A stretch of 64,000 nucleotides of DNA from Sorangium aterium (GTDB lineage Bacteria > Myxococcota_A > Polyangia > Polyangiales > Polyangiaceae), in NCBI RefSeq assembly GCF_028368935.1, contig NZ_JAQNDK010000001.1, positions 806,001-870,000 of the forward strand, written 5' to 3'. A program made the position numbers and the translations under genes. The notes below the pieces were generated by a model. That model worked only from the letters and a program-made list of their open reading frames with translations, was not told where the DNA came from and made no database searches. Below, one piece after another: positions 44,393-58,210 of the stretch (position 1 is the stretch's first letter; every line of letters begins with the position of its first letter).

Positions 44393-46159
44393 ATGGGAGC
44401 GCAGGGCTGCTCGCGAGGGGCGCGCGGCGCGCCGGCGGGCGAGGGGCGGGGCCGCGCTCGGCGCGCGCGATCGGCGCTGTCGCTCGCCGCGGCGCTGGCC
44501 GCGCTCGCCGCGCCGTCCGTCGCGGCGGCGCAGCTCGGCTTCGGCCAGCCCGGCATGTCGCAGCCGCCGCCCGCGAGCGCGCCGAAGCCGCCGCCCGGCA
44601 CGCCGGAGACGCACGCGGCGCCGACGTCCGAGGAGAGCCCGATCCAGACCCAGGAGCCGACCCTGCCGGAGGACCCGCTGGCGGTGCCGCCCGCGGTCAA
44701 GAAGCAGATCGGCACGAACGACGTCGGCGAGTGGGAGCGCGGGCGCGCCGCGGAGATCCAGCGCGACTGGTACGGCCCCTATTACAGCGAGCGGAGCGGC
44801 AGCTACCAGTTCAGGACGGTCTTCCCCCTGTGGGCGGAGCGCCGGATGCCCGGCGACCGCGCCACGATGGTGACGCCGCTCTACTACAACCGCCGGAGCA
44901 AGGACGTCGACGCCGACGTGCTCTTCCCCTTCTTCTGGAAGCTCCGGGACGAGAACACGTACACGACGATCGTCGGCCCGTTCATGCACCGCGAGTCCGA
45001 GGGTCGCCCCGCGAGCCCCGGGCGGGCGGCAGAGCCGGGCCGGCACGACAACTGGCTCGCGCCGCTCTTCTTCGAGGGAAAGCGCGACGACGGGAGCGGC
45101 TACTTCCACATCCCTCCCCTGCTGACCTTCACGCATCACACGGCGCAGAGCGGCTTCAACCTGGTCGGCCCCCTCTACTGCAGCTGGAAGGGCGGCCCCG
45201 CGTGCGACGTGCGCTCCGCCGACAAGATCCACCTCGGCCTGGCCCCCCTGTACTTCTACGGCCGCGACGAGAGCAGCGAGTACGAGGTCATCCCGCCGCT
45301 CTTGCACTACTACCACTACAGCGACGTCGGAGAGCGCTCCACCAACGTGTGGGGCCCGCTGATGTGGCAGCACTCCCGCAAGGGCGACGTGTTCAACCTC
45401 ATGCCCTTCTACTGGCACAGCTGGGGCAAGAACTACGATCGCACGACGCTGTTCCCGTTCTTCCACTACGGGTACGAGGGCAACAAGAGCCTGCTCATCA
45501 CGCCGCTCTTCCTGAAGGCGCGCGGCGAGGAGGGGGAGAGCACCTTCGCGACCTGGGGCTACGCTCGCTACCGAGGGCGGACGGAGCTCGACATGATCAC
45601 GCCGCTCTTCTGGCAATACCGGGATCCGGCCATCGATCTCGAGCGGACGTTCCTGCTCCCGTTCTATTACCGGGGCACCTCGCCGCGCAGCGATGATCTC
45701 GTCCTCTTCCCCTTCTATGGCCGCTTCAAGCGCCACGGGTTGAGCGACACCACGTGGCTCACGCCGCTCGTGCGGCACACGCGGGATCTCACCGGCTGGG
45801 AGACGGACATCTATCCGTTCTTCTACTCGGGGAGGAACCGCGACTCGACGCACCTCGTCGCCGCGCCGTTCCTCTGGGACTTCGCGTCGCCGACCTCGCG
45901 CACCACGGTGGCCCTGCCGTTCTTCTTCCGGTTCGCGGACCCGACGTCGGTGACGCAGGTCGCGCTCAACACCGTGTACCGGGAGCACCGGGTGCGGAAC
46001 GGCAAGGAGTGGGAGTTCCACCTCGTCCCGCTGTTCTCGTACGGCGAGACCCCGGATGGTCACTGGTGGAACGTCCTGTTCGGCCTCGCCGGGTACACGC
46101 GCGCGGGCACGGCGGCGACGATGCGGGCGCTCTACGTCCCGATCAAGCTGAGCCAATGA
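44393..46159 (+). CDS. Exported repeat protein with aromatic PLF/PFF beta motifs
   Basis: The 588-residue protein has a basic N-terminus and a signal peptide ending SVAAAQ (about residue 47), then a Pro-rich stretch. From about residue 130 it is built of a short repeated motif, roughly every 20 residues. The motif is a Pro then two or three aromatic/aliphatic residues (TPLYY, LFPFFW, APLFF, GPLYC, MPFYW, LFPFF, TPLFW, LPFYY). About fifteen copies alternate with charged turns. This suggests an outer-membrane barrel or a beta solenoid. The start is ATG at 44393; a TTG at 44378 overlapping the hisS stop is possible. It shares ATGA with the COMM-domain gene. The protein is not recognised and its function is unknown. 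Confidence 0.72.
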   Translation: MGAQGCSRGARGAPAGEGRGRARRARSALSLAAALAALAAPSVAAAQLGFGQPGMSQPPPASAPKPPPGTPETHAAPTSEESPIQTQEPTLPEDPLAVPPAVKKQIGTNDVGEWERGRAAEIQRDWYGPYYSERSGSYQFRTVFPLWAERRMPGDRATMVTPLYYNRRSKDVDADVLFPFFWKLRDENTYTTIVGPFMHRESEGRPASPGRAAEPGRHDNWLAPLFFEGKRDDGSGYFHIPPLLTFTHHTAQSGFNLVGPLYCSWKGGPACDVRSADKIHLGLAPLYFYGRDESSEYEVIPPLLHYYHYSDVGERSTNVWGPLMWQHSRKGDVFNLMPFYWHSWGKNYDRTTLFPFFHYGYEGNKSLLITPLFLKARGEEGESTFATWGYARYRGRTELDMITPLFWQYRDPAIDLERTFLLPFYYRGTSPRSDDLVLFPFYGRFKRHGLSDTTWLTPLVRHTRDLTGWETDIYPFFYSGRNRDSTHLVAAPFLWDFASPTSRTTVALPFFFRFADPTSVTQVALNTVYREHRVRNGKEWEFHLVPLFSYGETPDGHWWNVLFGLAGYTRAGTAATMRALYVPIKLSQ

Positions 46160-46767
46160 GCTCTAGCGGCGCCGAGCTCCGCTGCCTCGGCGGATCGCCG
46201 CCGCCCCCGGAGCTCGCCGTCGACCTGCGGCGGCTCCTGGAGCTGCCCGAGGGCGCGCGGCAGCGCCTCTGGGAGGCGCTCGGGCCGAGCCTCGGCGAGC
46301 CGGTGCCCGCCGCCGTGGAGCGGCTCCTCGACGCGTTCTGCCGCCGGCACGAGGTCGCGTCCGACGCGCTCGCGCGGGTGCTCAAGGCGTGCCGCTTCCT
46401 CATCCGCGAGGCGAGCAAGTCCGACCTCGATCGCGCCGCGCTCGCGGCCGACATCGCCGCGCTCGCGCCCGGCCAGGACGCCGAGGAGATCCAGGCCGTC
46501 CTGCTCGCCGGCTACGACCAGGCCAGGGCGCTCGTGCGGCGGGAGATCGTCCGCGGCGCGCTGCTCGATCACGGCAAGCTGCTCACCGGCGTCGCGTGGC
46601 GCGTCGACACGATCGCGACCGCGAGCCGCGGGGCGAAGATCGCCGCCCCCGTCGTCGTCCTCACGCTGAGCTACCAGGAGGGCGACCTCCGCTCCCGCAT
46701 CACGCTCCAGGCGACCCCGGAGACGCTGAGCGAGCTCCAGCGGCTCTGCGCGCAGATCCTCGGCTGA
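46156..46767 (+). CDS. COMM-domain (COMMD-like) protein
   Basis: The 203-residue protein has a helical N-terminal part (about 20-135) and a C-terminal alpha/beta domain (about 138-203). The C-terminal domain reads LLTGVAWRVDTIATAS, then APVVVLTLSYQEGD and ITLQATPETLSELQRLCAQI. The W-R-V-D strand, the Pro-V-V-L-x-L strand and the last helix match the COMM domain, for example COMMD1. The helical part, with SDLDRAALAADIAALAP and a long helix leading into the COMM domain, fits the HN domain of COMMD proteins. In eukaryotes these form the Commander complex; a bacterial role is not known. The ATG overlaps the upstream stop (ATGA). The similarity is judged by eye. Confidence 0.75.
   Translation: MSSSGAELRCLGGSPPPPELAVDLRRLLELPEGARQRLWEALGPSLGEPVPAAVERLLDAFCRRHEVASDALARVLKACRFLIREASKSDLDRAALAADIAALAPGQDAEEIQAVLLAGYDQARALVRREIVRGALLDHGKLLTGVAWRVDTIATASRGAKIAAPVVVLTLSYQEGDLRSRITLQATPETLSELQRLCAQILG

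Positions 46768-53008: not shown

Positions 53009-58210
<5,202 letters not shown>

Follow-up and report, generated by a model that had tools for sequence, protein, structure and literature searches.

A COMM-domain protein gene of Sorangium aterium and the type VI secretion setting of its bacterial relatives

What does a COMM-domain (COMMD) protein do in a bacterium? The question is raised by a gene in a 64,000-nucleotide (nt) stretch of the Sorangium aterium genome (contig NZ_JAQNDK010000001.1, positions 806,001 to 870,000 of the forward strand; hereafter, the window). An original prediction, made from the DNA letters alone, took this gene for a full-length, single-copy member of a family known mainly from eukaryotes, translationally coupled to an exported repeat protein. 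A passage in Healy et al. (2023, Cell, PMC10187114) states that neither Bacteria nor Archaea have yielded COMMD sequence homologues and that an origin in the eukaryotic stem is likely. Here, we report that the product is almost certainly a COMMD-family protein and that most of its bacterial relatives are encoded beside genes for the spike of the type VI secretion system (T6SS), to which the family is very probably tied in function. We give a probability of roughly 0.5 to the more specific reading that the myxobacterial COMM protein is an accessory scaffold for the assembly of a split T6SS spike, with the window copy acting in trans.

A COMMD-family protein in Sorangium

The gene (P0001; 46156..46767, + strand) runs from an ATG to a TGA in the frame that a codon-usage gene caller selected and encodes a COMM-domain (COMMD-type) protein of 203 amino acids (aa), an assignment that draws on the open reading frame, Pfam, codon usage, a structure model, and profile searches. 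All the stretches cited earlier (LLTGVAWRVD, APVVVLTLSY, ITLQATPETLSEL, and SDLDRAALAADIAALAP) are found in the translation. The Pfam family COMM_domain (PF07258) matched residues 143-194 at 25.9 bits (cut-off, 22.4; E = 1.1e-5). The COMM_HN model, named for COMMD2-7/10, remained below threshold (15.3 bits; cut-off, 23; E = 0.029); because human COMMD6 is described as having no HN domain (PMC6089597), this shortfall is not decisive for membership. A single place in the window genome (13.47 Mb, 7 contigs) exceeded the Pfam COMM cut-off, and a profile of the relatives likewise found one COMM gene (150 of 203 first-look candidates scored), in keeping with the single copy predicted and differing from the ten genes of eukaryotes.

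An AlphaFold2 model built from nine sequences (mean predicted local distance difference test [pLDDT] score of 86.7; pTM of 0.70) has helices across residues 18-139, strands at 141-157, 160-175, and 178-186, and a final helix at 188-202. Residues 18-139 (46207..46572, +) form a predicted all-helical, HN-like domain with a linker helix, and residues 140-203 (46573..46764, +) form a C-terminal COMM domain of strand-strand-strand-helix order. A Foldseek search of the PDB, as the original prediction had proposed, returned 18 chains at E <= 0.001, all COMMD or COMMD-like and including an octameric Flavobacteriaceae protein. With VIA-align 2, the model aligned with the full-length COMMD 8f2r_G over 193 residues (Z = 15.1), with the COMMD9 HN structure 4oe9 over 117 residues (Z = 9.9), and with the COMMD9 COMM structure 6bp6 over 66 residues (rmsd of 1.8). 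The HN assignment made for the N terminus was therefore upheld by the predicted fold but not by the COMM_HN score, while the broader claim of a full-length COMMD-type protein was borne out, with a PF07258 match at E < 0.01 and a COMMD fold in the model.

Used as the sole query, the window protein reached human COMMD1 at E = 0.008. A profile of 51 bacterial COMM members (A3), collected in the survey below, recovered human COMMD4 (E = 7e-10), COMMD7 (2.5e-9), COMMD1 (4e-9), COMMD2 (5e-9), COMMD8 (5e-6), COMMD3 (1e-5), COMMD5 (4e-5), and COMMD9 and COMMD10 (both 0.002). Nine of the ten human COMMDs precede the first non-COMMD chain (E = 0.27); COMMD6 is the only one that this profile did not recover. 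The best stretches start within the N-terminal domain, indicating homology beyond the COMM domain. At E <= 0.01, PF07258 matched 42 of the 51 bacterial proteins and COMM_HN matched 15. The conserved WRVD motif is intact in the window protein (residues 148-151; 46597..46608, +), and across the 51-member alignment its W is kept in 48, its R in 49, and its D in 43. According to Healy et al. (2018, PMC6089597), WRVD lies on the CCDC93-binding surface of COMMD9, and the Trp is strictly conserved. The bacterial family thus shares with eukaryotic COMMD1-COMMD10, the COMMDs of Commander/CCC, an HN-like plus COMM architecture, the WRVD motif, a predicted fold that matches along almost the entire chain, and profile homology. 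These profiles connect bacterial and human COMMDs across both domains, contrary to the statement in PMC10187114.

Bacterial COMMDs are not new per se, since an orthologue is already in the PDB. The 199 printed residues of 9ZA1 match exactly in the Sorangium cellulosum So0157-2 orthologue (L025), and 170 of them (85%) are identical in the window protein; the compared part of 9ZA2 occurs in the second COMM protein of So0157-2, which is encoded in a Tvp cluster of the kind described below. Both entries ("COMM domain-containing protein") have 8 chains and are known here as chain sequences alone. Neither was among the structure matches (library to 8 April 2026), and they may be newer. Residues 221-255 of 9za1_A and 237-271 of 9za2_A are an extra copy of the last ~35 residues of the 9ZA2 COMM domain, perhaps a feature of the constructs. 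The octameric COMMD-like protein MBK5214510 from a Flavobacteriaceae bacterium (PDB 9Q6A/9Q6C, released 2025-10-01) resembles the model in fold, as both Foldseek and VIA-align 2 show, but was absent from the sequence matches of the window protein and the profiles, with 10-16% identity in structural alignments. Chlamydial CT584/Cpn0803, whose fold is said to resemble that of COMMD9 and which PMC6089597 links to type III, not type VI, secretion, aligned weakly with the model (Cpn0803, 3q9d; Z = 4.6) and gave no sequence match to the window protein or the profiles. The notion of a mainly eukaryotic family is therefore only partly right: the bacterial member is genuine, but four bacterial entries (9ZA1, 9ZA2, 9Q6A, and 9Q6C) were already in the PDB. 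No paper on 9ZA1 or 9ZA2 was found in literature searches that left preprints and most subscription journals out of scope, nor, among the papers listed and judged by titles and opening abstracts, was any report of bacterial COMMD sequence homologues or of a COMMD-T6SS link. What is new here is the genomic context of the bacterial COMM genes, and the depositors of 9ZA1 and 9ZA2 may already know part of these findings.

Spike genes around the bacterial COMM genes

The survey of Myxococcota for homologues and conserved neighbours that had been proposed as a check was run as a profile search of 183 genomes of the order, each counted once. COMM genes were found in 29 (one to five matches per genome; a weak fifth match in G365, on C953 with E = 9e-4, was dropped as the last weak one). 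Genome surveys were a first look in which at most 16 candidates for COMM, and 9 for the partner p608 described below, were scored per genome, and copies may have been missed. Together with named loci and fetched stretches, the 29 genomes made up a set of 45 loci carrying 51 COMM genes. A COMM gene counted as linked if a member of any of six spike/Tvp families lay no more than 12 kb away, as detected by profiles built from genes of several clusters. By this measure, 41 of the 51 COMM genes have a spike/Tvp gene nearby, 36 have four or more of these families, and 35 have TvpC/DUF3540, against a background of ~1-5% of the genome lying within 12 kb of a DUF3540 match (three genomes tried). Linkage rests on one gene in L113 (a p608 at a contig end) and in L097 (a VgrG). 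Same-strand neighbours no more than 150 nt from a COMM gene include VgrG (13), p608 (11), and PAAR (6), several with 4-nt overlaps, and the order VgrG, COMM, p608, TvpAB, TvpB, TvpC, PAAR recurs.

One cluster (L019) was scanned gene by gene with Pfam, the remaining clusters being labelled by our own profiles. It encodes a VgrG (Phage_GPD, Phage_base_V), a protein with DUF2169 and pentapeptide repeats, a pentapeptide repeat protein, a DUF3540 protein, and a protein that joins a PAAR-like domain to an S41 peptidase. The same gene set is presented by Monlezun et al. (2026, PMC13373197) as the Class III Tvp system of the T6SS; the families of Serratia marcescens TvpAB, TvpB, TvpC, Paar1, and VgrG1 are those that surround most bacterial COMM genes. 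None of 12 passages compared, out of 30 places that match "COMM" in that paper, concerns a COMM-domain protein. The two settings differ in the spike itself: S. marcescens VgrG1 bears its own long beta-prism (PMC13373197), whereas the VgrGs of COMM loci are often short and a separate p608 is usual. Nineteen of the 33 VgrGs called in COMM loci are 471-491 aa long, and the rest are fragments (97-358 aa) or longer, up to 1004 aa.

The p608 family (L063:8952-10778, L019:2989-4344, and others) consists of uncharacterised, shaft-like proteins. Eight members scanned with Pfam had no family above cut-off (Gp5 was subthreshold in two), and p608 had no sequence match in the PDB. In two long VgrGs from COMM-less clusters, the p608 profile matched the C-terminal part, at about residues 540-720 (whole-protein E = 4e-6 and 8e-6; 0.0015 and 0.0006 for the best single stretch). 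These matches, along with the short VgrGs, lead us to read p608 from sequence as the putative shaft of a split spike.

COMM and p608 go together across genomes. Both were found in 28 of the 183 genomes, COMM alone in 1 (G414, an incomplete Sorangium metagenome-assembled genome [MAG]), p608 alone in none, and neither in 154 (Fisher P ~3e-32). Among the 91 genomes with the sheath protein TssC, the corresponding counts were 28, 1, 0, and 62 (P ~1e-22); related genomes are not independent, and by genus COMM and p608 each occur in 11 of 83. Of 356 genomes sampled across the phylum, 9 had p608, each of them a COMM genome. A match to TssC/VipB itself was present in all 29 COMM genomes (weak in G139, 4e-6) versus 62 of the 154 others. 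Most bacterial relatives thus differ from eukaryotic COMMDs in adjoining T6SS spike genes, and this setting at the T6SS tip hints at an unexpected role for a supposedly eukaryotic family. Tandem COMM pairs with a 4-nt overlap lie within Tvp clusters at L098:8486-9720, L100:5864-7131, and L104:2007-3331; they occur in G365 (two clusters) and G406 and suggest hetero-oligomers.

The window copy and a proposed role in spike assembly

The window gene is one of the ten unlinked COMM genes, the others being its five Sorangium orthologues, three genes in G416 and G417, and one in a planctomycete MAG (G285). Its genome nonetheless carries five TssC matches and two p608 clusters, one on C5 (PAAR, TvpB, TvpAB, p608, VgrG) and one on C4 (PAAR, TvpC, TvpB, TvpAB, two p608), neither with a COMM gene in the stretch fetched, as well as a further Tvp cluster without p608. 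Given two COMM-less p608 clusters and no other COMM gene found, the window copy probably serves both in trans. G416 and G417 similarly have unlinked COMM genes alongside p608 clusters that lack COMM; in G417, the unlinked gene shares a contig with a p608 gene that lies ~17 kb away, past the 12-kb limit. In a tree of the 51 COMM proteins, linked and unlinked copies are intermixed: the label switches four times, and supported branches require three or more of these switches, a pattern that a component able to act in trans would be expected to show. Most simply read, COMM can act in trans and was separated from its cluster several times; because the root of the tree is not known, the direction of change is not shown.

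In the role that we propose, COMM would be a cytosolic accessory protein (adaptor or scaffold) in the assembly of a split T6SS spike in Polyangiales-type myxobacteria. As the hub of the spike, a VgrG that is in many cases short (about 470-490 aa) would be joined by a separate shaft-like p608 and capped by a DUF4150/PAAR tip that would be loaded by TvpAB (DUF2169 plus pentapeptide repeats), TvpB (pentapeptide repeats), and TvpC (DUF3540). Before the spike was mounted, a COMM oligomer would keep hold of extended stretches of spike proteins or cargo, and the window copy, outside any cluster, would serve both p608-type Tvp clusters in its genome. The model is the human COMMD ring, which is wrapped by unstructured stretches of CCDC22 and CCDC93 (PMC10187114). 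Bacterial COMM rings, if formed, may by analogy hold extended parts of the spike or cargo; the titles of 9Q6A/9Q6C read octameric, and 9ZA1 and 9ZA2 have 8 chains each. If the T6SS link is functional, spike assembly acquires an unsuspected component, and the COMMD family, whose basic biochemistry is still unclear, gains a simple and genetically tractable bacterial setting.

Several results weigh against this scaffold role. The six spike/Tvp profiles had no match in the 24 kb around the window COMM gene (34001-58000). Relative to L025, the ratio of nonsynonymous to synonymous substitution rates (dN/dS) was 0.52 for the window COMM gene, 0.26 for hisS, and 0.30 for the repeat gene, and it ranged from 0.39 to 0.68 for COMM across all Sorangium pairs; COMM is thus the faster-evolving gene, implying mild constraint. 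The structure model of p608 was unusable (pLDDT of 41), so that its identity as a shaft is a suggestion from sequence comparison. The p608 profile was built from COMM-neighbouring genes and is biased toward them, and five linked loci (L021, L033, L097, L102, and L122, some at contig ends) have no called p608. Finally, over 15 loci the distances among COMM proteins barely track those of any cluster partner (Spearman correlation of 0.03-0.32; 0.12 for p608, no better than the others), while the distances of TvpAB, TvpB, TvpC, and PAAR intercorrelate at 0.66-0.88. This suggests that COMM is not a fixed partner of one Tvp protein and makes effector-specific adaptors possible.

The last result bears on a reading in which COMM is specific to cargo, serving the PAAR- or VgrG-borne effectors of each cluster as their adaptor or immunity protein. 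A part matched to variable cargo would not be expected to coevolve with the conserved Tvp core, a COMM-adjacent PAAR protein can bear an enzyme domain (the S41 peptidase of L019, in the one cluster scanned), and unlinked COMM copies exist. The COMM core, however, is strongly conserved (W148 in 48 and R149 in 49 of 51), unlike what is expected of an immunity protein, and COMM accompanies the structural-looking p608 in 28 of 28 genomes; we regard cargo specificity as unlikely. That COMM genes are mere passengers of variable T6SS islands, with a job unrelated to the T6SS, would fit the ten unlinked genes among 51, the COMM gene of G285, a MAG with no DUF3540 match (a point that also tells against the scaffold), and, again, the lack of coevolution with neighbours. 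This we consider highly improbable, since COMM often stands inside the VgrG-COMM-p608-TvpAB order with short gaps or 4-nt overlaps, and its co-occurrence with p608 persists in genomes where it is unlinked, such as those of Sorangium.

A further possibility is that the Sorangium copies, including that of the window, have left the T6SS and work, in envelope assembly for instance, with the repeat protein or a histidine kinase encoded nearby, so that only cluster-borne relatives serve the T6SS. The repeat gene (44393..46159, +) encodes an exported-looking protein of 588 aa in which TPLF/FPFF motifs recur and for which Pfam gave no family over cut-off. It lies directly upstream of COMM in all six Sorangium loci, the five others being 80-89% identical to the window's, and is itself preceded by hisS in L025, L026, and L027; the six Sorangium COMM copies form a single clade (support of 98/93). 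Yet gene order is kept among close species regardless of function, and an exported protein could meet a cytosolic COMM only before export. The ATGA stop/start overlap of 4 nt noted as translational coupling is real in the window but recurs in just one other Sorangium locus (L095; two of six), with gaps of 24, 88, 95, and 103 nt in the other four, i.e., a range of -4 to 103 nt. The repeat protein is missing, as fetched, from the remaining 39 of the 45 COMM loci, and the association that holds family-wide (41 of 51 genes) is with T6SS spike genes. It was therefore rejected as the key partner of COMM, which it probably is not, and retained as part of this rival account, which we judge possible but rather unlikely.

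Spread and origin of the family

Across 377 Myxococcota genomes, the 51-member profile matched 14; two of these (G205 and G065) were dropped, as no called gene in the fetched stretches carried the match, and weak matches of the window protein in G172, G076, G183, and G216 (E = 8e-5 to 6e-4) were excluded from the counts. In a Planctomycetota sample, 1 of 199 genomes matched, namely, the starting genome, G285. The COMM gene without DUF3540 in a Phycisphaerales MAG lies at L028:10001-10606 and L126:812-1417; its product is the sister of a myxobacterial copy (support of 97/92), and the gene is perhaps a transfer. A gene on the COMM contig of G285 has its best Planctomycetota relatives at 70% (G429) and 64-81% (G461) identity, as compared within that phylum, so the contig is probably not misbinned. 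An origin on plasmids or phages was tried and set aside, because a tblastn search with the window protein had no match in 72,556 plasmid and 50,697 phage records; so was a viral origin, as none of the 125 viral-contig stretches that matched the A2 patterns encoded a COMM relative.

A bolder account holds that COMM rings are an ancient bacterial scaffold for contractile injection systems, one that assembles a split T6SS spike in myxobacteria, and that a module of this kind, acquired before the last eukaryotic common ancestor, gave rise to the ten eukaryotic COMMDs. We consider it decidedly unlikely; if true, the tandem COMM genes would be a bacterial parallel of eukaryotic COMMD heterodimers.

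Elsewhere in the window, a gene at 53009-58210 (-) encodes a 1733-aa protein that combines a protein kinase, an nSTAND1 NTPase, and many WD40 repeats.

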